Below, one piece after another: positions 4,198 to 32,575 of a stretch of 64,000 nucleotides of DNA. The translations under genes were made by a program, and so were the position numbers. The notes below the pieces were generated by a model. That model saw only the letters and a program-made list of their open reading frames with translations. It had not been told where the DNA came from and searched no databases. Numbering within the stretch: the stretch's first letter is position 1; each line of letters begins with the position of its first letter. This stretch comes from Vulcanimicrobiota bacterium (GTDB taxonomy: Bacteria > Vulcanimicrobiota > Xenobia > Xenobiales > JADMJV01): contig JAHBVR010000003.1 of NCBI GenBank assembly GCA_019637395.1, positions 62,001-126,000 of the forward strand, read 5' to 3'.

Positions 4198-5214
4198 TCA
4201 GCCGATAAGAGCCAGAGTTTCAAGAAAGCGCTGACCCAGTCGCTTCAAGCGTTGACAAAGGGAACTATCCTCAGGAAAAAGGGCGCGCCCGAGGTACCTC
4301 ACCCGCCCGATGGGGCTTGGGATAGCCCAAACCGGCGTAAGCATCCCTAAGAAATCGGGAGCTCTGCGTGCCAGCACCAACCTGGCGAACCAGTGAGTGA
4401 AAACATCGAGTGCTCCAGGAGGCCGGGAGGCTGCTTCCAAAGCGGGAGGCAGAGCGGCCCCGTACCATTCACTCAGGCACCGAGAAGCCAACCACAGATG
4501 ACGGCCGGCGTGGTAAGCGGTCACGGACTGAGCCAAAACCTCAGAATCGCCTCTCCAAGCCAACACCAGAACGTCCACAACCCAATTCGCCCGGGAAAAG
4601 GCATGCTTGGAGCCGTGGAGCAAGGCTAACAAAAACTCATGCTCGTTCTTCAAACGAAGCACCGGACCCAGCTCGGGATCGAGGGGGACCGCCTCGCTCC
4701 ACCAGTCTCGATGAGAGCTTGCCAGAATACTCAATTGATGCAGGGGATGATCATGCAGGTCAAGGCTAAGCGCGCCGCGCGACATCGTTGCGCCGCTGGC
4801 CGCGCGGAAACCAATCTCTTCCAGCAACTCCTGAACGCGCCTACGAAACCTCGGAGGGACCGCAATATCGATGTCACCAAAGACTCGTTGACCTCTGACT
4901 CGATAGGTACCAAAGGCCAGGGCGCAGCCTTTAAATGTCATCAATGGGATGGAATGGCGGCCCACTATCTCGGAAATCTCTCGCAAGGTTTCCTGACAAT
5001 GAAGCTCCCAAGAGATGGCCGTGATCAGATCCCGCTTCCAGTCTTCCGGGAGTGTGTCCCCCGCTTCGAGGTGACGCTGCAAGGCGGGAACCCACAGACC
5101 TTCCCTTTGCAACTGGCTCTTGTGCACGGCCAAATCTTCCAGTCCGGCCAAATCGGTGGAGACGCCGGCCAGACTCCTGGCGACATCTCCCCCAGGCAAT
5201 CTCCACACAGTCAT
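4198..5214 (-). CDS. Nucleotidyltransferase family protein (NTP_transf_5 type)
   Basis: 338 residues, cytoplasmic. The diagnostic segment is LMTFKGCALAFGTY followed by VFGDIDIAVP, which gives the Asp-x-Asp metal-binding pair of the nucleotidyltransferase fold as used in the Pfam NTP_transf_5 family. Proteins of this family occur in polysaccharide and peptide-modification loci, often with PqqD-like and HprK-like proteins; both of those lie about 13 kb away here. The substrate is unknown. The start overlaps the stop of the preceding acyltransferase gene by 4 bp (ATGA), which indicates coupling within the 7022-1120 operon. Confidence 0.8.
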   Translation of the reverse strand: MTVWRLPGGDVARSLAGVSTDLAGLEDLAVHKSQLQREGLWVPALQRHLEAGDTLPEDWKRDLITAISWELHCQETLREISEIVGRHSIPLMTFKGCALAFGTYRVRGQRVFGDIDIAVPPRFRRRVQELLEEIGFRAASGATMSRGALSLDLHDHPLHQLSILASSHRDWWSEAVPLDPELGPVLRLKNEHEFLLALLHGSKHAFSRANWVVDVLVLAWRGDSEVLAQSVTAYHAGRHLWLASRCLSEWYGAALPPALEAASRPPGALDVFTHWFARLVLARRAPDFLGMLTPVWAIPSPIGRVRYLGRALFPEDSSLCQRLKRLGQRFLETLALIG

Positions 5215-10645: not shown

Positions 10646-11762
10646 GCGTAGCCAGGATTGCGTCGATTCTTTCTATCTGGCGTTGATAGGTGTTGTCGAG
10701 AGCGAATTCACGCCTGGCTCGAGACCATTCTTCCGAGTTGTAATGGTCCAAGTTCAAAATAACCTCTTTAAAGAGGGCGGGCAAATCCTCCTGGCGTTCC
10801 ACCATACGGATAAAATGCTGATGCTGCTTGTACTGATCAACATAATTGGATACGATAACTTTCCCGGTGGATAAATACTCCAGAACCTTGTGGGGATTCG
10901 CCATCTCAGCCGGCATCATCTCCCCACGGTAACACATTAAAAAAAGATCGAAGTCCTGAATCGTCCTACCCACCGCCTCAGGGGACAACTGACCGTGGAA
11001 AATCGTATTGGGTAGTTCTTGCAGTTGGCGGAGCCCTTCTTGCCGGGTCGCCTCCAGAGTCAAGTTGCTTATCCCGGCCGGGCCAATAAAGTGGAAGTCT
11101 ATCTTGGGATTTGCGCTCACGATCTGGAGCAAGGTTGCATAGTCCAGGTGCTGACTGTGCAGATTGCCCACATAGCCCACTCGAATTCGGGCCGAGACCG
11201 GAGGGGGAGTTGAAGCCTCCGAGGCGGCAGCCAGAAAGCTTTTACTGAGGCCATGGTTGATCTGGTATTGCGGAGTCCTCTCCTTCGGAAGTCGAGCCAA
11301 AATCATGTCCGATGTCGCAAAAACGACGTCGGACTTACGCACACACTCTACTTCCAACAGAGTTCTATGAACGTCCACGGGATGATAGATATGCAGGCTT
11401 TCTCTTCCAAAAACACTAAGATCTTGAAACGCATACGGGTCAAAATTCCAGATGATATCAAAACTCCGGCCCGCGGCCAGCGTCACCGCCACCGCCAGGA
11501 GTCGGTGAACCCAATACCGCAACAGCCGCGGCAAGCGATTGACTCCTGGAAGCCAGGGCCGATTCAGAAGGAAAAGACCCGGCTGGATGGCCTGTAAGCG
11601 GGGGAGCCACTGACCACGGCGGGGCGGTCCCATAAAATAAACCTGATTCCCTCGGCTCAACTCGACTGCGTAGTGATGCTTCGAAACGAAACTCACTCCC
11701 CATGGTTCGGGAGAAAGGAGTAAGATACGTTTATCCTTCAAAATCCTGAGGTCAGCCGGCAT
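10614..11762 (-). CDS. Glycosyltransferase, GT-B fold (GT4-like)
   Basis: 382 residues. Opens with KRILLLSPEPWGVSFVSKHH, a GT-B N-terminal strand and helix. The C-terminal domain has IRVGYVGNLHSQHLDYATL, DFHFIGPAG and FDLFLMCYRGEM, then ANPHKVLEYLSTGKVIVSN with the Glu used for nucleotide-sugar binding. It most likely transfers a hexose to the local polysaccharide. It is the last gene of the leftward operon 17384-10614; its ATG overlaps the end of the upstream Wzz-like gene by 11 bp, with AAGAAG just before it. Confidence 0.88.
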   Translation of the reverse strand: MPADLRILKDKRILLLSPEPWGVSFVSKHHYAVELSRGNQVYFMGPPRRGQWLPRLQAIQPGLFLLNRPWLPGVNRLPRLLRYWVHRLLAVAVTLAAGRSFDIIWNFDPYAFQDLSVFGRESLHIYHPVDVHRTLLEVECVRKSDVVFATSDMILARLPKERTPQYQINHGLSKSFLAAASEASTPPPVSARIRVGYVGNLHSQHLDYATLLQIVSANPKIDFHFIGPAGISNLTLEATRQEGLRQLQELPNTIFHGQLSPEAVGRTIQDFDLFLMCYRGEMMPAEMANPHKVLEYLSTGKVIVSNYVDQYKQHQHFIRMVERQEDLPALFKEVILNLDHYNSEEWSRARREFALDNTYQRQIERIDAILATLKKSVPQIAR

Positions 11763-12543
11763 ATCTTCTTAATCTTCTCCTCAGGATAGGTATGCTTCCC
11801 AGGGCAACCGCCCAGAAAGCCGCCTGGTGCCAGGGGAAACGCTGCAAACCGAGCACTTCAGGTTTTTCCACGACCTCGAAATCCGGGCTCTGTAATCGTC
11901 CCCGATTCAGCATCCGACGGTGTTCAAATTGCTGGCGCCGGCTATTTTCGACCAACCTCTGATAGAGACGGGCGGCATCTCGAACTTCGACCTCCAGCTC
12001 CTTGCCGTGAACCCGTTCCCCCTCGAGCAAAAGCCGGTAGAGGTCCCCCTCCTGTTTGCGCACCTGTTCCCCAAGCCGCTCTTCCGCCTCTTCATACTGC
12101 GGGCCGAGAGTCTTCACGACGCCCAGGTTCTGCTCCGTCAGAGCAGACCTGAGAAAAGCAAGATATTCCAAGCAAGCGTTCTTGGCCAACGTACGCTCCG
12201 CGCACACGCTAAGGCAGAGAAGATTCGGCTCTTTTCGGACCAGTCGCAGAGACCGCAGCGCATCTTTGCGCACTCGAACGGAAAAGCGGTCGCGCCGCAA
12301 TTTTTGAAAGACAAAATCCTGCGCCGTGACGCTTTGCAACAGCGTTTCCAACTGAAGGTAGGCGGCTTCCAGCGCCTGGGGCCGCGACCACTCCTCGCCC
12401 GCCGCTCCCAGACCGGGCTGAACCGAGATGCAACCACCGGCTTCAAAGCGAGGATTGTTCCAGCGCCAATTCCAAGTCACGAGCAGCAGGCCGAGCACAG
12501 CCAGTTTCCAAGAGAACCGGGTGAAGCCGCGGGCGCGCCTCAT
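11752..12543 (-). CDS. Wzz-like chain-length/coiled-coil inner-membrane protein (short)
   Basis: 263 residues with one N-terminal helix (WKLAVLGLLLVTWNW), a long charged periplasmic region rich in Glu/Arg that should form coiled coil, and a C-terminal helix near FWAVALGSIPILRRRL ending in a basic cytoplasmic tail. Just before the second helix is SPDFEVVEKPEVLGLQRFPW, which resembles the Pro-rich segment of polysaccharide co-polymerases (Wzz/PCP). It would control polymer length together with the ligase/polymerase genes. The same SPDFEVV string occurs in the second Wzz-like protein (15040-16092). It overlaps the O-antigen ligase gene by 4 bp. No kinase domain is present. Confidence 0.65.
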   Translation of the reverse strand: MRRARGFTRFSWKLAVLGLLLVTWNWRWNNPRFEAGGCISVQPGLGAAGEEWSRPQALEAAYLQLETLLQSVTAQDFVFQKLRRDRFSVRVRKDALRSLRLVRKEPNLLCLSVCAERTLAKNACLEYLAFLRSALTEQNLGVVKTLGPQYEEAEERLGEQVRKQEGDLYRLLLEGERVHGKELEVEVRDAARLYQRLVENSRRQQFEHRRMLNRGRLQSPDFEVVEKPEVLGLQRFPWHQAAFWAVALGSIPILRRRLRRYAG

Positions 12544-14966
12544 AGTTCCGACTCTGGATCAATCTTCTCTATCGCCTGCTCCGTCCCCTTAGCCTTATCA
12601 TTGGCAACCTTCAAACGTCCTTCTACCGCGCCCCCTTCACCGATCGGCAGTCTTAGCAGCTCTTCATAGTAGCCTTTGGCAATCTCCGGATGACCGTGCC
12701 GCATATAAAGATCAGCCAACATCAACCGCAAATTACCGTCTAAATCGTAATTCAGACCTTCGCGAAGAACCGCTCTGGCCTCTGACTTCAAGCCCTTCCT
12801 TTCGTAGATCTGAGAAAGGATGGGGCGAGCCCAGACCTCCTGGGGTTCTCTGGCCAACAGGCCCTGCAGTTCCCAAGCGACGTCATTACTTTGCTTTTGG
12901 GCCATTTTGGCGTTGGCCCAGATTTTCCAGATATTGCGGGAAAGACCAGGCTCAAGATCATGGAAAGCCCGCGAACGCAGTTGATTCAAAATGCGCAGCT
13001 GATTCGCATAGTTTTTTTTGGCCCCCTCCAAGTTCGCGGATTGAAGCAGATAGCCCGGATTGTCAGGGTATTTGCTCCGCAAGCTACCCAGGACGGAGCT
13101 GGCCACCATGTAATTTTTACGACGAATCGCCAGTTCAACCACCAGTTCCGCCGCCTTCGCATCCCGACCGGCGATGTCCCAACTGCTGATAAGCTTCAGT
13201 CCGGCTTCCGGATCTTTTCTGGCCAGAGCATAGGCAATCTGTGCCTGAGCGAGATTGTCAGCGCTCGATCTGCCCACCTGGATATTTTCCAACAATTCGA
13301 CAGATTCCGTGCTATGGCCGAGCAAGATGGCATTTCGAGCTCTTGCCCTCTGCAAAGAAGGGGAATAATGCGCGATTTTTTCGCCTTGTGCGAGTAAATC
13401 TCTGGCCCGCTCAGGTTTGCCCCTATATTCCAGAAAACGAGCATACTCGATCAGCACAATCAGGTCGCGCGGACTTGCAGCATAAGCTTTCTCCAGACAC
13501 TTGTCACGCCTCGTCAACCAGACTTCGCGTCCCGAGAACGCGTAAGCGCGACTACACACCTTCGAGGCATCCACCAACAATCTGGCATTTCCAGGCGCGG
13601 CCCGGTCGGCTAATAAAAAAGCATCGTAAGCCCTGTCCCAATCCATGGTAAGTAGCGCATTACGTGCCTGCTCGGTGAAACGTCTCTGCTGGAGAAATCC
13701 CCAACCTTGATAGCCATCCCAGATGGCCAGTGCCAGCAGCAACAGGGCCGGCGGCAGCACCGCCCAGCGTGAAGCCCGCAGTTGGGACGTCTGCACTGAG
13801 GTGGGACAGCCAATCGCCAGCGCCAGCAAAGCCGCAAGCCAGACCAGTGAGGCCGGAATAGGCACCAGGAAGTTGAACGAAGAATATACCGCGATAGCAA
13901 GCACAGCAGCCAGACTGCCGGAGCACCAGCCCGGCGGATAGTCATCACAACGCCAACTGCTCCAGATGGCCATCACCCACAGTCCCACCCAGAGCGCGAA
14001 GCCCGGCAGACCCAGTTCGACGAGAATCTGGACCCAATCGTCGTGGGCCACATTCATATAGGCCTCATCGTACTCCATCGGGGGGCGATAAGCCTGATAA
14101 GCGAGGTGAAAGGCGCCCGGTCCGAAACCCAGCACAGGCTTCTCCGGTACCGCCCGCAGGCCATGCACCAAGACATCGACGCGGCTTTGAACAGCCACAC
14201 GGTCTTTCCCCTGAAGAAAACGCTCGACCCGGGCCAGACGGCCCCCGGCTCCCGAAAAAAGCGCCATGCTGGCCAGAATTCCTAAAAACAATGGCGAGAG
14301 GACCAACAGGACGGCCGGGAGACTGCGGGACAAGCGATTATACAGCAGCAAACACATGCCCAGATAGCCCATGCCAATCCCGGCCAGCGCGGCTCGCGAC
14401 CCGGTCAGGACAACGCACAGAAAGAGAAAAGTGGCCAGGGCTAAAAACCCTAGCCGGCTAGACTTCTGAGCTTCGGCCGCCTGGCCGAGGGCCAAAAAGG
14501 CCGCACCCAAAGGTAGAATGGAAAAACAGTCGGGATTGGTGAAGGTCGCCTGGAGATGTCCGCTGGCGCTGAAGATCCCCCAAACACAAAGAGCAGTGGC
14601 GATAAAGATCATCCAGCGGACCATAGCGCGCCAACTGGCCACTCCGTCCAGGCCAATGCAGAAAAGGCTCAGAGCGGCGCTAAAGCCGATCCAACCACTC
14701 AGGCTGATCCGGCTCAAAAAGGCGTCCAGACTACCGTGAGTGGAGATGGCCGCCCACCCGGTCAGACCCAGGGCGAACCAAAGCGGCAGCTCTCGGCCGC
14801 GCGGGCAACGGCCCCCAACGAGCGCCAGACCAGCCAGAAAGGCCAACAGTGAGCCTGACAAAAGAGTCCATGCCGGAATCGGCGCCGATACCCCTGGATT
14901 CTCCAGCAGGCTCGCGCCGAGATAGGCCGCTCCCGCCCCTAAACAGACCCTGTTCACAATTGTCAT
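12540..14966 (-). CDS. O-antigen ligase/polymerase family protein with TPR tail
   Basis: 808 residues. The first ~430 form about 12 membrane helices with the Wzy_C/WaaL hallmark loop: PVLGFGPGAFHLAYQAY, then YMNVAHDDWVQILVELGLPG, where His-Asp replaces the common His-Asn. The remaining ~370 residues are cytoplasmic or periplasmic TPR-like helix pairs (for example ARFLEYRGKPERARDLLAQG). Such proteins polymerise O-antigen units or ligate them to lipid A-core or other acceptors at the periplasmic face. The TPR tail is long but is seen in environmental homologues. It is flanked by two Wzz-like genes, as expected for a polymerase/ligase module. Confidence 0.88.
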   Translation of the reverse strand: MTIVNRVCLGAGAAYLGASLLENPGVSAPIPAWTLLSGSLLAFLAGLALVGGRCPRGRELPLWFALGLTGWAAISTHGSLDAFLSRISLSGWIGFSAALSLFCIGLDGVASWRAMVRWMIFIATALCVWGIFSASGHLQATFTNPDCFSILPLGAAFLALGQAAEAQKSSRLGFLALATFLFLCVVLTGSRAALAGIGMGYLGMCLLLYNRLSRSLPAVLLVLSPLFLGILASMALFSGAGGRLARVERFLQGKDRVAVQSRVDVLVHGLRAVPEKPVLGFGPGAFHLAYQAYRPPMEYDEAYMNVAHDDWVQILVELGLPGFALWVGLWVMAIWSSWRCDDYPPGWCSGSLAAVLAIAVYSSFNFLVPIPASLVWLAALLALAIGCPTSVQTSQLRASRWAVLPPALLLLALAIWDGYQGWGFLQQRRFTEQARNALLTMDWDRAYDAFLLADRAAPGNARLLVDASKVCSRAYAFSGREVWLTRRDKCLEKAYAASPRDLIVLIEYARFLEYRGKPERARDLLAQGEKIAHYSPSLQRARARNAILLGHSTESVELLENIQVGRSSADNLAQAQIAYALARKDPEAGLKLISSWDIAGRDAKAAELVVELAIRRKNYMVASSVLGSLRSKYPDNPGYLLQSANLEGAKKNYANQLRILNQLRSRAFHDLEPGLSRNIWKIWANAKMAQKQSNDVAWELQGLLAREPQEVWARPILSQIYERKGLKSEARAVLREGLNYDLDGNLRLMLADLYMRHGHPEIAKGYYEELLRLPIGEGGAVEGRLKVANDKAKGTEQAIEKIDPESEL

Positions 14967-15039
14967 ATAAAAATTTCAGAACGCTCCTGCATTCGTGACC
15001 CGCCCGCCCCTTTTGGACAGGGCAGACAAAGCCCTTCCT

Positions 15040-16092
15040 TTAATCCTTCACCAGAGCACTCAAAACACGGCGCCAGTACAGCAATCGGACCAGCCAGAAA
15101 AGCAGGCCCGCGCCCAAGGCACCCGCCAGACCGAACCATAACAGGCGTAATTTAGAAGCCGGCACCAATTGCGGCGCATCGACCACCTCGAAGTCCGGCG
15201 AATCCAGAGTTTCCAACAGCATCAACTCGGCGTATTCGGCCAAGAGCCCCCTCCGAAGTTCAACGCAATCCAGATAGACTCGCTGCAGCCGGACTCTGTC
15301 CAGGGTGCGCCTCGTCCGCGGGGGACCACTGCCCGGCGTGGTCCCCGGCGCCGATTCCATGAGCAATAGCTCCTCGAAAAAGTCGGCGGTTGCCTGAGAA
15401 GTTACCGAATCCTGAATGCGCTTTGACCACACCTCTTTGAGGACTTCACCGGAAACCCCCAGCACAGAGTCCCCGGTGGGATTGGCGAAATCCCGAAAGC
15501 TCTTGAGCTTCTGCTCCAGAAAACGAGTCTGTTCATCCAGTCTGGCCAACTCACGCTCAACCTGGAGCCGGGCGCGCTTCGAATTAGTCAACGCGGAATG
15601 CTGCAAAAACTCACGGTAGTAGAGAAGATACGCCTCCAAAACAGCTACTGGCTGTGCAGCCGAGACGCGCAGCCGCAGGGCCGCCCGACCGTCCGGCCTG
15701 ACCCTTAGCCCACCATGGTGGAGGGCCCAGGCCAGTTCGCGCAACCGAGCCGGAGCAGCATCAGGATAGACTTTGGCGGCAACCTGCTGAGCGGCCGTCC
15801 GACTCCTGAAGACCTGGGCGCTTAACTCCAGCACATTCAGCTCGCTGGCAGGCGGCAAAGCCAGGCTTTCCAGAGCGGGAGTGGCGCTCGCCACGGGATT
15901 CTGCAAGCGCCGAAAGATGGGCGTGTTGATGCTGGGAAACAAAAGCATGGTCTCGGCCTGAGGGTCGGGAGGAACCCAGCGGCTCACCGCCACGCCGGCC
16001 AGAAACCCACAAAGCACCAGGCTCAGGCCACCCGAACGAAACAGGTCTTGAGCGGCGCGGCGGGAACCACGCGATAAGAAATAGACGAACAT
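15040..16092 (-). CDS. Wzz-like polysaccharide co-polymerase
   Basis: 350 residues. N-terminal helix (GLSLVLCGFLAGVAVSRW), large periplasmic domain with a central coiled coil (around residues 190-250), then SPDFEVVDAPQLVPAS before a C-terminal helix (GLAGALGAGLLFWLVRLLYW). This two-helix frame with a Pro-containing segment before the second helix is the PCP/Wzz architecture; no C-terminal tyrosine kinase is fused. It likely sets chain length of the O-antigen-like polymer. AGGAG is placed 9 bp before the ATG. The gene sits between the polymerase-like membrane protein and the ligase. Confidence 0.78.
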   Translation of the reverse strand: MFVYFLSRGSRRAAQDLFRSGGLSLVLCGFLAGVAVSRWVPPDPQAETMLLFPSINTPIFRRLQNPVASATPALESLALPPASELNVLELSAQVFRSRTAAQQVAAKVYPDAAPARLRELAWALHHGGLRVRPDGRAALRLRVSAAQPVAVLEAYLLYYREFLQHSALTNSKRARLQVERELARLDEQTRFLEQKLKSFRDFANPTGDSVLGVSGEVLKEVWSKRIQDSVTSQATADFFEELLLMESAPGTTPGSGPPRTRRTLDRVRLQRVYLDCVELRRGLLAEYAELMLLETLDSPDFEVVDAPQLVPASKLRLLWFGLAGALGAGLLFWLVRLLYWRRVLSALVKD

Positions 16093-17500: not shown

Positions 17501-18301
17501 ATGAAGTCACTGCCAAGACTGAACAAAGCACTGGTCGCAGAGAGAGTCGGGGAAGAGATGGTCATCCTTTGCACTGGCGTGGGCGAGGCATACTGCCTGA
17601 ACCCCGTCGCAAAGCTGGTCTATCAGTCTTGCGAAGCCAGAGAATCGCTCGAACAATGCGAGCGCCTGGTGGCGAGTTCCTTCGCCATGGACGCACAGGA
17701 GGCCACCACAGTGGTGGAGGCCGCACTGTTCGAAATGCGCGCGCATCATCTGTTCGAAGCTGACGAGAGCGCTTCCAGTGGCGAAAAAACCCGCCGCGAA
17801 GTGCTGGTCGCCAGCCTCAAAATCGCTCCCCTGCTTCCTTTTGTATCTTCGGCTCTGCTACCCAGTCCGGCCATGGCCATTTCCTGCCGGAAGCTCGGCC
17901 AGACGACCACCCAGGCCTCCGATTGCTGCGGCTCCTTTGTGGGCAGCCAGGTATTTGGCACCACCGGCGGCGTTTGTTGCAAAAATTCCCCCCCTACCTA
18001 TAGTGGGGGAATCTATCCTAACACGGTCAATACTGATGCCGATTGCCGCACCGCCGTCAGCGGAACCGGCTGCTGTCAGGGCGCCGGCGTCATCATCTGC
18101 TGCCCAACCGGGACTGCCTACGCGGGCGATTGCCGGAAGCAAAACGGGCAGGCGCTTTCACCGTTCCGGGCTGGCACCGAAGGACCTGCGCCAATCAACA
18201 CGATCCGTTCCGGAACTGCGGGCTCTACGGAATGCTGCTCAGACCGAATCCAACAAATGGGACCCGCCGACCCCGGCAGCAACTGGGTTTGCATCGCCTA
18301 A
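17501..18301 (+). CDS. PqqD-like domain fused to internal Tat-like signal and Cys-rich tail
   Basis: 266 residues in three parts. Residues 1-88 look like a PqqD peptide-chaperone domain (MVILCTGVGEAYCLNP then a helical half ending MRAHHLFEA). Residues 96-126 resemble a Tat signal placed inside the protein: KTRREVLVAS, a hydrophobic run, and AMA as cleavage site. Residues 127-266 carry 14 cysteines, including five adjacent CC pairs, as expected for a disulfide-rich exported domain. PqqD domains normally bind leader peptides in the cytoplasm, so an export signal behind one is odd: the tail may be a modified, exported product with its own chaperone as leader. AGAGGTGA precedes the ATG by 7 bp. 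An HprK-like kinase follows in the same frame. Confidence 0.72.
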   Translation: MKSLPRLNKALVAERVGEEMVILCTGVGEAYCLNPVAKLVYQSCEARESLEQCERLVASSFAMDAQEATTVVEAALFEMRAHHLFEADESASSGEKTRREVLVASLKIAPLLPFVSSALLPSPAMAISCRKLGQTTTQASDCCGSFVGSQVFGTTGGVCCKNSPPTYSGGIYPNTVNTDADCRTAVSGTGCCQGAGVIICCPTGTAYAGDCRKQNGQALSPFRAGTEGPAPINTIRSGTAGSTECCSDRIQQMGPADPGSNWVCIA

Positions 18302-18322
18302 CCCTAAGCTCGTAAATTTCGA

Positions 18323-19111
18323 TTGGTCAACCAGGCTTTCCAGCCTCAACGGTTTACAACCGAAGGATTCGGGATTCATCTGACTCTGGAACTCGATAGC
18401 CAGTTGGACATCTCGGGTCTCAACCAGGCCTGCCCCCCCGGGCAGGCCTGGTTGCCTTGTTCTGAAACGAAAGCGGATTTCTGGATTCGGCCCGGCCGGG
18501 GCCACTGGCTATTAGGCCATCGGAACAAGGTGCTTTACCAGGCCAGCCAGCATGAACTTCCCGACGTTCTGCGCCGGGAAGTTCATGCTTATATAGCCAC
18601 CCATTCCCCCAGCCACCTTTTCATCCATGCCGCCGCCGTGCAACTGCCCCACTGCCTGCTGGTTCTTCCCGCTCGAACCTACAGTGGCAAATCCACGCTA
18701 ACCAAAGCCTTTCTGGACCTCGGCTACCCGGTCCTCAGCGACGAATTCTGCGTGATCCAGGAGAGCCGAGTCTATCCATTTCCCCGGGAGCTTTTACTGC
18801 GCGACCCGGATCAGGCCATCAAGCTGCCGCCCCCCCCTCCCTACTGCGATTTACCCCCTGCCATTTTTTCTCTCAAGTATCAAAAGGACGAGCCCGGCCT
18901 GGCGGTACAACCCATAAGCGCCGGTCAGGCCGTCATGGCACTGATCGACAACTGCGTCTCGGCTCGGCACCTAACGTCCGAGCGCCTCGGCTGGCTGGCG
19001 CACTTCTGCCAAAAGGGCGTGGCCTTTTCTGGGACGAGAGGGGATGCGGCTCTGACCACGCAACTTATCATCGACAAAACCAAGAGTGAGGAAAAATGGA
19101 AGACACACTGA
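18323..19111 (+). CDS. HprK-related kinase-like P-loop protein
   Basis: 262 residues. The core LFIHAAAVQLPHCLLVLPAR leads into a P-loop ARTYSGKST (residues 117-125), followed by LGYPVLSDEFCVI with the Asp/Glu found in HPr kinase/phosphorylase C-terminal domains. The first P-loop residue is Ala instead of Gly. Related small kinases occur beside PqqD-like proteins (the HPr-rel systems named in TIGRFAMs, from memory) with unknown targets. No ATG or GTG fits: the first start after the upstream stop is TTG at 18323, without a visible ribosome site, and the junction reads TAA CCC TAA in the same frame as the PqqD gene. Two perfect inverted repeats lie in its 5' half. It overlaps the next gene by 16 bp. 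Confidence 0.75.
   Translation: MVNQAFQPQRFTTEGFGIHLTLELDSQLDISGLNQACPPGQAWLPCSETKADFWIRPGRGHWLLGHRNKVLYQASQHELPDVLRREVHAYIATHSPSHLFIHAAAVQLPHCLLVLPARTYSGKSTLTKAFLDLGYPVLSDEFCVIQESRVYPFPRELLLRDPDQAIKLPPPPPYCDLPPAIFSLKYQKDEPGLAVQPISAGQAVMALIDNCVSARHLTSERLGWLAHFCQKGVAFSGTRGDAALTTQLIIDKTKSEEKWKTH
18421..18454. repeat. Perfect inverted repeat inside HprK-like gene
   Basis: CAACCAGGCCTGCCC (18421-18435) pairs perfectly with GGGCAGGCCTGGTTG (18440-18454) around a CCCC loop: 15-bp arms within coding sequence near the 5' end of the HprK-like gene. No T-run follows. Confidence 0.9.
18549..18589. repeat. Second perfect inverted repeat inside HprK-like gene
   Basis: Arms 18549-18563 (AGCATGAACTTCCCG) and 18575-18589 are exact reverse complements, 15 bp each with an 11-nt loop. 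It lies about 95 bp after the first inverted repeat, in the same coding sequence, with an unrelated sequence. Confidence 0.9.
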
Positions 19112-19887
19112 CTCTCCTGCCCCGCAATAAATTCCGAACCAGTTGCGCCGTCAAACACGACAAGCTCCCCTGGACCGTGGGCTGCTCGTTCCTCTGGTAT
19201 GGCACCAGCGCGGGATTTCGCACCAACAATGAGGACGTCCTCAAAGAGGTCATGGGCAAGCTCGGGCCGGATGCCCAACCCATCCAGGAGCAGGATGTGG
19301 ACCTGCTTTTCTCCATCCTGGTCGGCAAGACGCCCACTCGACGAGGGGTTCAAAACTACCACATCTATTACCAGGATTGGGTTAAAAGGCTGCGCTCCCT
19401 CGACCTGCCCCAAGTGGTTCGCGATGGCCAGGCCTTGATGATGGAAGACCTGCAAATGCTGACCAAATCCCGGTCCACCTTCCGGGGTCACCTGCTGGCC
19501 TTCGAGAGTGACCACTTCTGGCTCCCGGACACCGAAACAGAGGATCTGGAAAAAATTCTGGCGGAACTGCCAGGCAGCCGCCTGATCAAGCATGGCACCC
19601 CACCACTGGTTTGGATGACGGACGAGGCCACTATGGGGACCTGGTCCCATCCGAAGGAAATCGTGCCGAACATCCGAGCCGCTATCCTTTGCAACCCGGA
19701 GGACGCTAAAGAACCCGCCGAAGTGTCCCCCGGCAAAGCCTGTCTGAGATTGGTGCAGTCGGCGACCGCCTCTCGCTATTGGCCGGAAACGATCTTGCCT
19801 CGGCTGGGCGCCTGGGCGCGCAGCCACCCCACCTTCGAGGCAGGCTCAAGCCACATGGCCGCGGCCGTTCGTAAGGCCATCGAATAA
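19096..19887 (+). CDS. Uncharacterised protein of the PqqD/HprK-like cassette
   Basis: 263 residues, soluble, no signal peptide or membrane segment. I do not recognise the family. Features visible are an N-terminal WTVGCSFLWYGTSAGFRTNN, faintly like the N-terminal half of some HprK-related proteins, a central DWVKRLRSLDLPQVVRDG, and DHFWLPDTETEDLEKILAEL. Codon use looks like that of its neighbours. The ATG has GAGGAAAA just upstream and lies inside the end of the kinase gene, so the two are probably translated together and act in one process. It ends 1 bp before the convergent PP2C phosphatase gene. Confidence 0.75.
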   Translation: MEDTLTLLPRNKFRTSCAVKHDKLPWTVGCSFLWYGTSAGFRTNNEDVLKEVMGKLGPDAQPIQEQDVDLLFSILVGKTPTRRGVQNYHIYYQDWVKRLRSLDLPQVVRDGQALMMEDLQMLTKSRSTFRGHLLAFESDHFWLPDTETEDLEKILAELPGSRLIKHGTPPLVWMTDEATMGTWSHPKEIVPNIRAAILCNPEDAKEPAEVSPGKACLRLVQSATASRYWPETILPRLGAWARSHPTFEAGSSHMAAAVRKAIE

Positions 19888-19888
19888 G

Positions 19889-20632
19889 TCAGTCCGACTC
19901 CAGGGGGCCCACCAGGATTGCCGCGATATTGTCCTGTCCTCCTGGTTGTCCCTCTACCCCACTCAATGCAAGTTCCGTCAAGGCCAGCAACCTGGCTCCC
20001 CCGTCGCTTTTTTGAAAAACCTCCAACAAATGTCTGGCCTGGATGGAGCGATGAGGGTCTCGGTAACAGCACTCATTGACACCGTCCGTGTACAGCAAAA
20101 GAGACTCGTCCCTGGCCAGCACGAACCGAAACACCTCCGCCTGCTCGATGCGGAGGGGAACCCCCTGCGCCAGAAACTGGTCATTCACTCGATTTCGCAA
20201 AACGACGGCATCCCGAGACACGGTCAGCAGGCTCGAATCACCGTAGGAAAGCCCGAAGACCTCTCCAGAAGCCCGGTTCAGCACCGCCACTAAAAGCGTG
20301 GTTCCGCCGCCCGATGGCTCGATGGGCCATTCAAAAGTAGACAGCATCAAACTGAGTTGCCCGAGGTGAGACGGAACGCACGACCAGCGGAGCGACATCT
20401 CCGTCAGCAGTTGGTGTCCGGCGTACTGGCCCAAATGACTATCGGCGACGGCCAACAGCCAGCAGTCACCTTCTCGAAGCACCAACAGACCATCTTCGTT
20501 AGGACTGTTCTTGTCCGCTTTGAACCGAAACGATGGCGAATTGGCATCGGATCCCGCCGACAAACAACAACTCACGCAGGACAACTGACGCTGCTGAATC
20601 ATTCCTAGCTCCGGACAATCCTGCCCAAGCAT
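19889..20632 (-). CDS. PP2C-type serine/threonine protein phosphatase
   Basis: About 247 residues. PP2C motifs are in order: DKNSPNEDG, LLAVADSHLGQYAGHQ (the DGHG motif reads DSHLG), SGGGTTLLVAVL, GLSYGDSSLL, LLYTDGVNE and the closing GQDNIAAILV. The metal-binding Asp residues are present, so it should dephosphorylate Ser/Thr-phosphate. It lies tail-to-tail with the HprK-like cassette and could reverse a phosphorylation made there, which is inference. Start: ATG at 20632 has GGAG 9 bp upstream; TTG at 20647 would add five residues with AGGTGG close by. The rplM promoter lies behind it. Confidence 0.87.
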   Translation of the reverse strand: MLGQDCPELGMIQQRQLSCVSCCLSAGSDANSPSFRFKADKNSPNEDGLLVLREGDCWLLAVADSHLGQYAGHQLLTEMSLRWSCVPSHLGQLSLMLSTFEWPIEPSGGGTTLLVAVLNRASGEVFGLSYGDSSLLTVSRDAVVLRNRVNDQFLAQGVPLRIEQAEVFRFVLARDESLLLYTDGVNECCYRDPHRSIQARHLLEVFQKSDGGARLLALTELALSGVEGQPGGQDNIAAILVGPLESD

Positions 20633-20737
20633 CAAAATCTGCTCCAAAATTCCACCTCATCTCAAGAATCAGAGGCCGCTTATCGATCCAAGCTCAAGCA
20701 CCCTGCTGCCGCTTTGCGACTTTGTCGCGGGCAACCG

Positions 20738-28666: not shown

Positions 28667-31600
28667 ATGATCGACAAGTTAAAATCCGCCAGCCCTTTGA
28701 TGGCTTCTCGGCCTCCCCAGGCTCCTAAAGGCGCGGAAACGGCTTCCACTCAGCCCAACGACGGCATGCAGTGGTCGACGCCCGATTTTAAATTGGCCGG
28801 CCCTCCTAAGTTCGACAATCTGCAAGAAGCGGACAAACCTCAGGTCAAAGCCAGCGGGCTGGCCGAGTGGGGCAAGAAGCTCGGCCTCGGAGCCGCGCTG
28901 ACGATCACCGGAGTGGTCGGCCTGGCCGGCGCCGCCAACGCTCAGACCGCCCAGGTCCAGGTGCAAAGCAACGCGACCGCCGGCCAGACCATGACCCTGG
29001 CCCAGGCTGTGCGCGCCGCCTCCAACCGCGACCAGACCCCGGTGCACACCAACAGCGTTCAAGAAGTGGTCAATCGTTTCGACGCCAGCCAGCAAATTTA
29101 TGTGGTCGGCGCTCCCCAGTACCAGGGCCAGCCGCTCAGTGCCAACGATTACGCCCAACTGCAGTCCATCATGAAGGAACACCCTAACGCTTACGTAGTG
29201 CTCATCGCCAACAGCAGCAACATCAAGGATGACGACTGGGTCCTCTCGCGCGGCATCGGCGAAAATCCCGGCTTTACCGCCAACGTCGATCCGCGCACCG
29301 GCGACCGCAACGGCGAAGTCTTCATGATTTACTTCAAGACTACCGATCAGAGTTTTATCAACCGCACCGGCAAGGACCGGGCCATGTTCATGCGTTCCGA
29401 GCAACTGCTGGATGACGCCGGCGTGGGCGAGAACGACTTCGTCGATCGCGAGACGTTGCAGAATAAAGAACTTTTCAACCTCTATATCCAGGGCATCCAG
29501 TCCGGCAAAAGCGTGCCCATGGCCCTCAACGGCGTGCTCGAGCGCATCGACGCCGGCGTTGACAGCTACATAACCAACACCGTGCAAGGCGCTCAGAGCG
29601 CCGTGACGGCAGGTCAATCCGCGCTTTCCAACGTCGAGCCTAAGATTCGGGATTTCCAGCGCCTCCACGGCAGCAACGGCCAGCTCGGTTCGCCCGACGT
29701 CAACGGCTGGAAAGCCAAACTAGACCAGGCCCAGCAACTGGTCAACCAGCGCAACTACCGCGGCGCCCTCGATCTTGTCAAGCAAGTGCAGTCCTCTATC
29801 TCCCAATGGGAAACGGCCGCCACCAACTTCAGCAACGCTCCCGGCGTGGCCCAACAGGCTCAAGCGCTCATCGATCAGGCCGAAGCCCAGTTGCCTTCGC
29901 TGGAGAATAATGGTCCGGCCCAGGCCGCCCGGCGCAATATTGCCGAAGCCAAAGACGAGCTCAAAGCCTACCAGGCCAGCTATGCGGCCAACAACCCCGA
30001 TTATCAGCAACACCTGAACCGGGCCAGCGAACTCTCCCAGAGCGCCATCGATAAGGTCGCCGCCTCGCGCAGCCAGACCGAGACGATCAAGAACGTCAAA
30101 CTCTATGGCGGCGGCGCCCTGGCGGCGGTGCTGTTGCTCACCGGCGGTTTGTTGAATCATCGGGCTCGCAAGAAAAAGGACGAAGCCGAAGGCGTGGTCG
30201 ACGAAGAGCTGGCCAAGCTGGGCGAAAAGTCCAAAGAACTCATTCGTATCATGAATTCTGAATCTTATGATGACGTCTCGCAATATACCGGCAAGACCCA
30301 GAAAATGGCCAATGAGCTGATCGCCAGCACGGCCGACTCGCTGGCGCTGATGGGCGGCGGTGAAAAATTTATCGCCGAAGCCAAGAGCATGATCGCCGGC
30401 AAGACCATCGGCCAGCGTCTCAAGAATATGTTCGCCACCGGTAACTTCAGCAAAGCCGTCGAGTTGCTCACGGGTGGAGAAAAGCTGCCTTTCGATCTGA
30501 GTGATTCCCAGCGCGCTGAGTTGGAAAAAGGTTCGCACGCCGAAGCCTGGCGTGACACCATCCTGGCCCAGGTGCCGGCCAAACCTTTCGAGGATACGCT
30601 CAGCGGTATCCTCGAACAGATGGGCGCCCATGCCGGCACCAACGATAAACTGGTCACCACTATTCAGACCAAAGCCCGTGAAGTAGGCAACTATCTGAAC
30701 GCGGTACAGGCCGAGTCGCAGGCTCTGGTCGAGAAATCCAGCAAGCTGCAGGAAGCCGGCAAGGACGACGGCCTCTTCATCTCTCCCTCTGTCACCAAAC
30801 GCCTGATGCCCTTCGTGCTGGGCAGCGAAGGCCAGCCCGGCTTGCTCGATAAAGGCAACCAGGTCAAGAAACAAGACCCGGTGCGCGCCTGGGAAGAGTT
30901 CGCCGATGTGGGCAAGCGCATGGCCACCGAAGGCAACCAGATCGTGGACGTCGGGCAAGGCGCCCGCGACAACCTGCTGCCGGCCCTGAAGACGGCCGAC
31001 GAAGCGCTGCATCCCCATCAGGTGCAGACCGCCTGGGCCCACTCGCGCAAAGATGAGCTATCCATCGCCTTGGATCGGACCGGGGAAAAAGCCGTTTCCG
31101 GTGCGGTGGCCGCCGAGGTCAACGGCTTGAAGAATGACATTGCCGCCCTCCAGTCGCGGGTGGAAACGGTGGTCGAGCAGGACACGGAGCGCCGCGAGGT
31201 GTCCCCCGGTCTGATCACCGACGCCGAAGCCGACGTCAACACCGCCCGCGAGGGCCTGGCCAAAGCCTTGAAAGCCGCCGGCGTTTTCGCCGGCGGCAGC
31301 GCCGACCAGGTGCTGCGCGAGCCCGACCGCGACCCCACCACTCAGACCGAGAAGTCACACCAGGATTGGAGCCAGATCAAGGGCCATCTGGACCTGGGCA
31401 AGATCGAAGAAGCCGGCGCCTTGCTGCAGAACATTCGCACGCAGACGGCCACGGCTCACGATCTGGTCAAGCAGTCGCGGGACGCCTTCAACAGCTACAC
31501 GGCCACCTCGCAGGAGCGCATCTCGCGCCGCGACAATATCGGTAAGTCGATCAAGGAAACCTACGCCGATTCGCTCAAGCGCACTCAGGCCGGTTACAAC

Positions 31601-32575
31601 GCGGCCGCCCAGAAGGCGGCTGCGGCTGAAGTGCACAACGGCAACAATGACAAGGTCGGCACAGTGGCCGACTACCTGACCAATGCCCAAAATCAACTGG
31701 AAACCTCCGGCTCTTTAAACAGTCAGGCCCAGGCCAACTACGAGCGCGCTTACCTGTTGACTTCGCGCGACCAACTGACCGACAGCGACAAGCAGCTCAA
31801 AGTGGCCAAGGCCAACCTGGAGGCTATTACCGCCGCCGAGAAAACCTTGAACAACCATCAGGCTGAAGCCGAGCGCGAGCTGACGGCCCTGACCGGCCGG
31901 GTGCAGAACACCTCGGGCAAAACCGGCGCCGAGTATGTGCGCGGCAAGGCCAAGAACCTGGTCTCGCAAACCCAGAACGCCCTCAATCAGGCCAGGTCGG
32001 CGGTGGGCGCCAGGCCCGCCGATCCTTACGCGGCCAAAGCCGCGCTGGCGTCCGTAGAAAATCTGCGCACGCAGGCGGAAAGCACCATCGATTACGACCA
32101 TCGCTGCTTTGATTCGGCGCGCTCGGCCATCAGCTCGGCCGAATCGGAAATTCGCAGCGCCGAGTCGACCATCAGTCACGTCAACAACATGAGCTGGAGT
32201 ACTTACGTTTCCGATTTCGGCAGCGTCAGTCACTCCGTCTCCTCGAGCGATCTGTCGGGCGCCCGTTCCTACGTGAACAGCGCCCGCAGCGAACTTTCCA
32301 GCGCGCGCTCCAAGATGAGTTCACAGGACTACGAGGGAGCCAAGAGTTCCGCCGACTCGGCCAACAGCAGCGCCAACCGCGCCGAGAGCGAAGCCAACAG
32401 CGTCGCTTCCCGCGAGCGCAGCCAGTATAATTCGATGGTGGCGGCCGCCGAAGCGGAAGCCCGGCGCCGCCGCAAGGAACGCGAGGAAGCGGCCTCTCAC
32501 CATCACTCAGGAGGTGGCGGTGGTGGCGGCGGCGGCCACCATGGCGGTTCCGGCTCCACCGGCGGTGGCTGGTAG
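28667..32575 (+). CDS. 1302-residue Ala/Ser-rich membrane protein with TPM-like region and coiled coils
   Basis: Parts in order: a Pro-rich cytoplasmic-type leader (1-64); a hydrophobic segment near 70-95 with LAGAANAQT like a signal or anchor; residues ~120-245, which resemble a TPM domain (QQIYVVGAPQ, then RGIGENPG and GEVFMIYFK); coiled-coil helices; a clear transmembrane helix near 482-497 (GGGALAAVLLLTGG) followed by basic RARKKK; long Ala/Gln/Lys coiled-coil regions; a Ser-rich repeat zone (SAESEIRSAESTISH); and a His/Gly tail HHHSGGGGGGGGG ending GGGW, similar to the Gly-rich ends of TPM proteins. Function unknown; perhaps an envelope or cytoskeleton-like protein. GGAGG is placed 5 bp before the ATG. 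Homologue search would show how much is lineage-specific. Confidence 0.8.
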   Translation: MIDKLKSASPLMASRPPQAPKGAETASTQPNDGMQWSTPDFKLAGPPKFDNLQEADKPQVKASGLAEWGKKLGLGAALTITGVVGLAGAANAQTAQVQVQSNATAGQTMTLAQAVRAASNRDQTPVHTNSVQEVVNRFDASQQIYVVGAPQYQGQPLSANDYAQLQSIMKEHPNAYVVLIANSSNIKDDDWVLSRGIGENPGFTANVDPRTGDRNGEVFMIYFKTTDQSFINRTGKDRAMFMRSEQLLDDAGVGENDFVDRETLQNKELFNLYIQGIQSGKSVPMALNGVLERIDAGVDSYITNTVQGAQSAVTAGQSALSNVEPKIRDFQRLHGSNGQLGSPDVNGWKAKLDQAQQLVNQRNYRGALDLVKQVQSSISQWETAATNFSNAPGVAQQAQALIDQAEAQLPSLENNGPAQAARRNIAEAKDELKAYQASYAANNPDYQQHLNRASELSQSAIDKVAASRSQTETIKNVKLYGGGALAAVLLLTGGLLNHRARKKKDEAEGVVDEELAKLGEKSKELIRIMNSESYDDVSQYTGKTQKMANELIASTADSLALMGGGEKFIAEAKSMIAGKTIGQRLKNMFATGNFSKAVELLTGGEKLPFDLSDSQRAELEKGSHAEAWRDTILAQVPAKPFEDTLSGILEQMGAHAGTNDKLVTTIQTKAREVGNYLNAVQAESQALVEKSSKLQEAGKDDGLFISPSVTKRLMPFVLGSEGQPGLLDKGNQVKKQDPVRAWEEFADVGKRMATEGNQIVDVGQGARDNLLPALKTADEALHPHQVQTAWAHSRKDELSIALDRTGEKAVSGAVAAEVNGLKNDIAALQSRVETVVEQDTERREVSPGLITDAEADVNTAREGLAKALKAAGVFAGGSADQVLREPDRDPTTQTEKSHQDWSQIKGHLDLGKIEEAGALLQNIRTQTATAHDLVKQSRDAFNSYTATSQERISRRDNIGKSIKETYADSLKRTQAGYNAAAQKAAAAEVHNGNNDKVGTVADYLTNAQNQLETSGSLNSQAQANYERAYLLTSRDQLTDSDKQLKVAKANLEAITAAEKTLNNHQAEAERELTALTGRVQNTSGKTGAEYVRGKAKNLVSQTQNALNQARSAVGARPADPYAAKAALASVENLRTQAESTIDYDHRCFDSARSAISSAESEIRSAESTISHVNNMSWSTYVSDFGSVSHSVSSSDLSGARSYVNSARSELSSARSKMSSQDYEGAKSSADSANSSANRAESEANSVASRERSQYNSMVAAAEAEARRRRKEREEAASHHHSGGGGGGGGGHHGGSGSTGGGW

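Follow-up and report, generated by a model that had tools for sequence, protein, structure and literature searches.

Can a single polypeptide carry its own recognition domain, its own export signal and the peptide to be modified? The question is raised by three adjacent genes, here called A, B and C, in a stretch of 64,000 nucleotides from a Vulcanimicrobiota bacterium (contig JAHBVR010000003.1, positions 62,001 to 126,000; this whole stretch is referred to as the window). In the product of A, a PqqD-like domain, a signal of the twin-arginine translocation (Tat) type and a cysteine-rich tail follow one another, and the gene stands beside an HprK-like kinase (B) and a gene of initially unassigned nature (C). 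As results from the comparative analysis that we have carried out, the cassette consists of known parts of pathways for ribosomally synthesized and post-translationally modified peptides (RiPPs) in a new order, being a variant of the arrangement of RiPP recognition element (RRE), HprK-type kinase and nucleotidyltransferase. A gap of 21 bp between A and B and an overlap of 16 bp between B and C suggest a single transcript. The parts of the cassette, in window positions, are:

17501..18301, + strand: gene A, 266 residues, candidate precursor with RRE/PqqD domain, internal Tat-type signal and Cys-rich tail
17501..17752, + strand: RRE (PqqD-like) domain of A, residues 1–84, from PF05402, AlphaFold2 and Foldseek
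17792..17806, + strand: twin-arginine motif R98-R-E-V-L102 of A, from the conservation of RR across homologues
17870..17878, + strand: AMA, residues 124–126 of A, predicted signal-peptidase site, A.A being kept in the family
17879..18298, + strand: tail of A (14 Cys in 140 residues), not of the simple cystine-knot pattern
17882..17884, + strand: Ser128 of A, mature position +2, predicted phospho-acceptor, from the enrichment of Ser/Thr at +2
18323..19111, + strand: gene B, 262 residues if the uncertain TTG start holds, HprK-like kinase in which P-loop and SDE motif are intact, from TIGR04352, alignments and tree
18671..18694, + strand: P-loop of B, ARTYSGKS, from alignments
19096..19887, + strand: gene C, 263 residues, HprK/PEPCK-fold pseudokinase with the P-loop lost, as judged by hhalign, AlphaFold2, Foldseek and tree

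The presence of a PqqD domain, an internal Tat-like signal and a Cys-rich tail in one protein, as proposed by an initial annotation of the window, is confirmed at these coordinates. PF05402 matches residues 19–84 of A (E 4e-4), the score of 21.0 bits in the window frame falling slightly under the cut-off of 23.4 bits and that in the genome scan being 24.1 bits. The AlphaFold2 model of this part has a predicted local distance difference test score (pLDDT) of about 95, and its nearest structures in a Foldseek comparison are those of the lasso RRE TbiB1 (5v1u/5v1v; template modelling score, TM, 0.84–0.88 by target length), which gives the predicted model the winged-helix fold of RREs. Behind this domain come R98-R99, a hydrophobic stretch and AMA at 124–126, so that A has the features of Tat substrates (S/T-R-R-x-h-h, hydrophobic stretch, A-x-A). 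The same succession of RR and hydrophobic segment is found in 83 of 86 full-length fusions, with the logo S-R-R-[EQRDK]-[VFLAM]-[LIVM]-[RK], and in alignments of 16 and of 46 multi-phylum sequences RR is invariant, along with few other positions. Stand-alone PqqD proteins lack the RR motif, two TatC genes are encoded in the window genome, and Tat signal models match 2 (NCBIfam) and 1 (Pfam) of 46 family members. On sequence grounds, the RR segment of A is thus a conserved internal Tat-type signal, in line with the initial annotation, export itself being predicted.

The distribution of this layout was determined by a PqqD search of the window's 7.66-Mb genome followed by a profile of the PqqD-RR module. 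Six PqqD-RR fusions are encoded in that genome, namely A and five proteins having PqqD, RRx[FIV]L, a hydrophobic stretch and AxA, and seven more genomes of the same phylum contain further fusions. A kinase profile scan over the genomes of 84,980 species gave 277 relatives; in the best 80 of these 277 loci, which were examined, a PqqD-RR fusion adjoins the kinase in most cases. Altogether, about 85 members of the fusion family were seen in ten or more phyla: these include Acidobacteriota, Gemmatimonadota, Chloroflexota, Cyanobacteriota, Myxococcota, Planctomycetota, Calditrichota, Actinomycetota and Rhodothermota, plus Alpha- and Gammaproteobacteria. The search for PqqD-RR-Cys-rich fusions and their neighbours, which the initial annotation had recommended, therefore recovers a cross-phylum family with a recurrent kinase and nucleotidyltransferase. 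Literature searches on PqqD with twin-arginine, on HprK-related kinases and on cystine knots with twin-arginine returned no relevant paper and, in the literature searched, no description of a fusion-kinase system: apparently, it is so far undescribed. As a separate observation, at loci L218–L221 (genome G069, Rhodothermia) and L138 the number of fusions reaches 15 in one genome; some of them form arrays, and their tails are repetitive, rich in Asp, Ser and Cys, and in many cases have FCASA at the end.

The kinase of the window, B, matches TIGR04352 (HprK_rel_A) in the P-loop region with 48.2 bits (E 8e-13), the curated cut-off being 200 bits, and the kinase profile has no match among the sequences of solved structures. 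In other phyla the P-loop, HAG and SDE motifs are strongly kept. Of 80 fusions, 69 have a kinase-family gene within 3 kb. Kinase proximity in the 80 loci is biased, as these were fetched with a kinase pattern; for this reason, fusion and kinase were also searched separately in the same genomes. Among 58 genomes of the window's phylum, the kinase family is present in all 8 that have a fusion and in 2 of the 50 others (Fisher 2e-8). In a second phylum, represented by 99 evenly drawn genomes, the corresponding figures are 5 of 6 and 1 of 93 (Fisher 5e-7), the fusion of the sixth, kinase-less genome being at a contig end. Fusion and kinase are coupled at the genome level, and the coupling put forward in the initial annotation is upheld.

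The tails, in turn, behave as interchangeable cores behind a constant module. Tandem fusions of Okeania have modules with 98% identity and tails with about 22%, and of 59 pairs whose modules are at least 70% identical, 58 show higher conservation in the module than in the tail; the leader/core behaviour of such copies, with near-identical modules and unrelated tails, supports the suggestion of the initial annotation that the chaperone of the product is also its leader. Median values for the tails are 53 residues and 6 Cys, and the Cys count is even in 59 of the 67 tails having three or more. Strict cystine-knot spacing is found in 17 tails, where 1.7 are expected and the maximum in 1000 shuffles is 8, and single tails weakly match conotoxin or omega-toxin Pfam models. 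The tail of A is larger than a simple knot, and its AlphaFold2 model, with pLDDT near 40, is not taken to indicate a fold. Other tails are not of the Cys type, being Gly-rich, Ser/Thr-rich or, in one case in the window genome, a von Willebrand/YfbK protein. The latter (L046, G000:C11, 4883–6847) is a whole von Willebrand/YfbK passenger behind RRE and RR, followed by a nucleotidyltransferase gene, while Gly-rich passengers sharing an initial stretch of the type F..AG....VP.GV.SV were seen in more than one phylum (L062, L064, L056:8125–9078, L144, L217). A Cys-free tail with repeats of the TPTNTPTDT type (L123:8965–9648) and a tail ending in a long Ser run at a contig end, a possible target of polyphosphorylation (L114:3376–4128), were also recorded.

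A candidate for the modified residue is found right behind the predicted cleavage site. At mature position +2, 70% of the 81 homologues have Ser or Thr, compared with 21% of 78 controls, for which further signal-peptide-like proteins were taken and the cut was placed by almost the same rule; anywhere in +1 to +3, Ser or Thr is found in 74 of the 81 compared with 38% of the controls. In linear polyphosphorylated peptides (LPP), the HprK-like kinase LppK adds phosphates to S3 of the core, whose sequence begins with AQSNWK, just after a signal-peptidase-type cut (PMC13381572). From this parallel and the enrichment at +2, Ser128 is the predicted phosphorylation site of A. Phosphorylation may be followed by a second step, since 44 of the 80 fusions have a nucleotidyltransferase gene at most 3 kb away and an enzyme of such type adds a hexose to the phosphate in pseudomycoidin (PMC8498205). 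In the window, the possible partner is distant:

4198..5214, − strand: NTP_transf_5 nucleotidyltransferase (PF14907, E 1.5e-26)

The enzyme of kinase-associated type noted in the initial annotation is therefore real and has counterparts adjoining many homologous loci, whereas here it is 12 kb away from the cassette on the opposite strand. A MauE(-thioredoxin) gene is found within 5 kb of 15 of the 80 fusions, and in the cultured Gemmatirosa kalamazoonensis kinase, fusion, MauE-thioredoxin and nucleotidyltransferase are all together, with kinase and fusion at about 1039958–1041360 of NZ_CP007129.1. Other cultured carriers are Richelia and Thermohalobaculum.

Gene C has no credible match in Pfam and NCBIfam. 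However, C-type proteins align with the kinase profile over 222 columns, most of their length (hhalign, E 2.2e-11), and the AlphaFold2 model of C (pLDDT 87) retrieves from the PDB, by Foldseek, phosphoenolpyruvate carboxykinases (PEPCK) and then HprK/P, with E about 1e-3, probability reaching 1.0 and TM up to 0.46: C thus combines the fold of the HprK/PEPCK superfamily with full-length homology to the kinases. The P-loop GxxxxGK[ST] is absent from C and its clade, as inferred from alignment and tree, the eight P-loop-less C-type proteins forming one clade (99/99) separate from the P-loop kinases; two further losses of the P-loop occur elsewhere in the kinase tree, in which several branches are long. 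C retains the N-terminal DxLxW..G signature carried by kinases of other phyla, which is not found in the window's B. As judged from profile and model comparison, C belongs to the same family as B and is a pseudokinase with the PEPCK/HprK fold, and a division of labour between B and C may be envisaged. The unknown gene of the initial annotation is accordingly a relative of the neighbouring kinase.

Taken together, these results suggest the following scenario. RREs are known as discrete domains or as domains fused to an enzyme, to which they bring a precursor; A would be a one-chain precursor, in which the RRE acts as leader and modification platform and is followed by an internal Tat signal and, as the core, by the C-terminal tail. 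B, recruited or positioned by the RRE, would phosphorylate the tail at a Ser/Thr, with the conserved residue at +2 from the cleavage site (Ser128) as the most likely target. C, a duplicated copy which would have kept the N-terminal signature and lost the P-loop, may assist B as a docking partner or allosterically. In relatives, and perhaps in trans here, the NTP_transf_5 enzyme would add a further group to the phosphate. The chain would then be exported by Tat and cut at A-x-A, the tail cysteines forming disulfides, aided in some species by MauE-thioredoxin. The released protein would be small and stable and located at the cell envelope, in many cases in the context of polysaccharide synthesis. 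We consider such a RiPP-like one-chain pathway, with a core that is phosphorylated, Tat-exported, cut and oxidised, to be somewhat probable. The broader proposal appears evenly balanced: namely, that the family is a widespread RiPP-like class outside Bacillota, with recognition domain, Tat signal and core in one polypeptide, making phosphorylated (perhaps phospho-glycosylated) disulfide-rich mini-proteins and, in the lineage of the window genome, using a kinase/pseudokinase pair.

A number of observations speak against the one-chain pathway. A itself has no match to the Tat signal models, and the Lys of the paralogues is missing from its motif, TRREVLVAS. The YxxP motif to which RREs bind is found in the linker of only 1 of 83 fusions, the C-x-C-x-CC-x-C-x-C spacing is absent from the 14-Cys tail of the window, and the link between MauE and Cys-rich tails (14 of 67 tails, compared with 1 of 13 others) is not significant (P 0.44). 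Also, 9 of 22 fusion copies in the window's phylum have no kinase-family gene within 3 kb. Homologues lacking the kinase had been named in the initial annotation as evidence that would contradict it: some copies do lack an adjoining kinase, but the co-occurrence per genome holds, and these lone extra fusions within genomes indicate that the kinase probably serves several fusion substrates in trans.

The variability of the tails and the frequency of pseudokinases allow for a different reading, according to which no covalent modification takes place and the RRE is a cis-acting gatekeeper of Tat, binding the signal or the tail and delaying export until folding or partner binding, with the HprK-like proteins as ATP-driven or passive chaperones. 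Indeed, tail lengths and sequences vary highly, up to Gly-rich and von Willebrand passengers, and pseudokinases without P-loop are common in the window's phylum, so that catalysis beside the fusion seems not always needed. This reading is unlikely in view of the strong retention of the P-loop, HAG and SDE motifs in kinases of other phyla, of the recurrent adjoining nucleotidyltransferase, of a type which acts on phosphorylated lasso peptides (PMC8498205), and of the conserved Ser/Thr at +2.

A second alternative relates to the genomic setting. The cassette forms the end of a polysaccharide locus that starts about 42 kb before the window and contains glycosyltransferases, Wzc- and Wza-like proteins, acyltransferases and polymerase-like membrane proteins (names assigned by eye, except where Pfam is cited), as well as another fusion, accompanied by a kinase gene and one for asparagine synthase (L044, G000:C23:35850–39360, left of the window). 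Polysaccharide genes recur near the fusion family, yet many loci are without them. Kinase and nucleotidyltransferase could modify the RRE, the linker or a polysaccharide precursor, in which case A would serve the synthesis of envelope polysaccharide as an adaptor or sensor, anchored at the membrane by the RRE and an uncleaved signal. We give this a probability as low as that of the gatekeeper: apart from the loci devoid of polysaccharide genes, hypervariable, swappable tails behind A-x-A resemble released cores, and the presence of up to 15 fusions in one genome fits products better than sensors.

Other genes of the window were noted on the way. A PP2C/SpoIIE-type phosphatase (19889–20647, − strand) is convergent with gene C and adjoins apparent ribosomal protein genes L13 and S9, and is not recurrent near the cassettes. 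At 11752–16092 (− strand), two small proteins, Wzz-like by eye and with no Pfam match, flank an O-antigen ligase with TPR repeats. A protein of 1302 residues at 28667–32575 (+ strand) has long Ser/Ala-rich repeats, probably helical, and a Gly/His-rich end.

Among known systems, LPP (PMC13381572, Nat Commun 2026) shares with the present family an RRE, an HprK-like kinase and a nucleoside triphosphate (NTP) transferase, uncharacterised in LPP, together with signal-peptidase-type processing, a capsule-locus setting (reported for both LPP and paeninodin clusters) and a constant N-terminal part with variable C-termini. In LPP, however, the precursor is a protein apart and has a YxxP leader, the RRE (LppB) stands alone, and the system brings an MsbA-like exporter and a dedicated SipW-like peptidase, whereas the present family has RRE, Tat signal and core in one chain, mostly Cys-rich tails and, in some cases, a pseudokinase. 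The HprK-like kinase and NTP transferase expected of LPP are present in the fusion loci, but the YxxPxVLxHQ leader motif is in no open reading frame of these loci, and no LPP-type precursor frame is found near the cassettes. Neither a SipW-like peptidase nor an MsbA-like exporter is among the gene clusters recurring in at least four loci, no targeted search having been made for them; an ABC transporter lies 16 kb from the cassette within the window. Lasso peptides of the paeninodin/pseudomycoidin type (PMC8498205) share the lasso-like RRE fold, the HprK-like kinase and the nucleotidyltransferase, and differ by a macrolactam cyclase, a B2 protease and a discrete RRE, in place of Cys-rich tails with a Tat signal; cyclase and B2 protease are not among the clusters recurring in at least four loci. 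Membership was rejected for LPP, from the missing leader motif and the fusion of RRE to tail, and for lasso peptides, from the lack of a recurrent cyclase or B2 protease. That the family is nonetheless a true lasso or LPP member whose precursor or cyclase was missed is very improbable: the enzyme set and capsule setting are the same (PMC13381572), and an asparagine-synthase gene adjoins a paralogue of A on the same contig, but the absences just described, the fusion of the RRE to its own tail and the reported restriction of LPP to Bacillota (PMC13381572) are against it. A fortuitous fusion, with an RRE remnant before an ordinary Tat-exported Cys-rich protein and the kinase as chance neighbour, would suit the weak PqqD score of A and is scarcely credible, being already contradicted by the same layout in ten or more phyla, the near-invariant RR and the genome-level coupling to the kinase.

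The HPr-rel-A system (TIGR04352 kinase, TIGR04353 PqqD) has homologous kinase and PqqD domains, and with a limit of E 0.01 its models match 40 of the 42 members of the kinase family and, among the fusions, 21 of 46 (best TIGR04353 E 3e-7). A has no match to TIGR04353 at E 0.01, and the kinases scored individually against TIGR04352, B and that of locus L059 (43.4 bits), are far below 200 bits; membership was rejected on these grounds. The resemblance to HPr-rel systems seen in the initial annotation is hence that of a relative, not of a member, with A and B below the curated thresholds, and the PqqD protein of the present family additionally carries the Tat signal and the tail. SynChlorMet (TIGR04248 ScmD, TIGR04249 ScmC) shows matches with the PqqD domain and the kinase family that are weak, and no radical SAM gene is among the clusters recurring in at least four fusion loci. 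Knottins, or inhibitor cystine knots, share the C..C..CC..C..C pattern of 17 tails and differ in that the present tails are bacterial, short, placed behind an RRE-Tat module and known from sequence pattern only, that of the window not being of the pattern. In comparison with these systems, a precursor with its own RRE and Tat signal would, if true, represent another route by which a modified peptide is made and exported. The family, with about 85 members seen across ten or more phyla and apparent bacterial knottins among them, accounts for the unknown gene C as a pseudokinase, predicts a single modified residue and offers HprK-related kinases a candidate substrate apart from those of the lasso and LPP systems.

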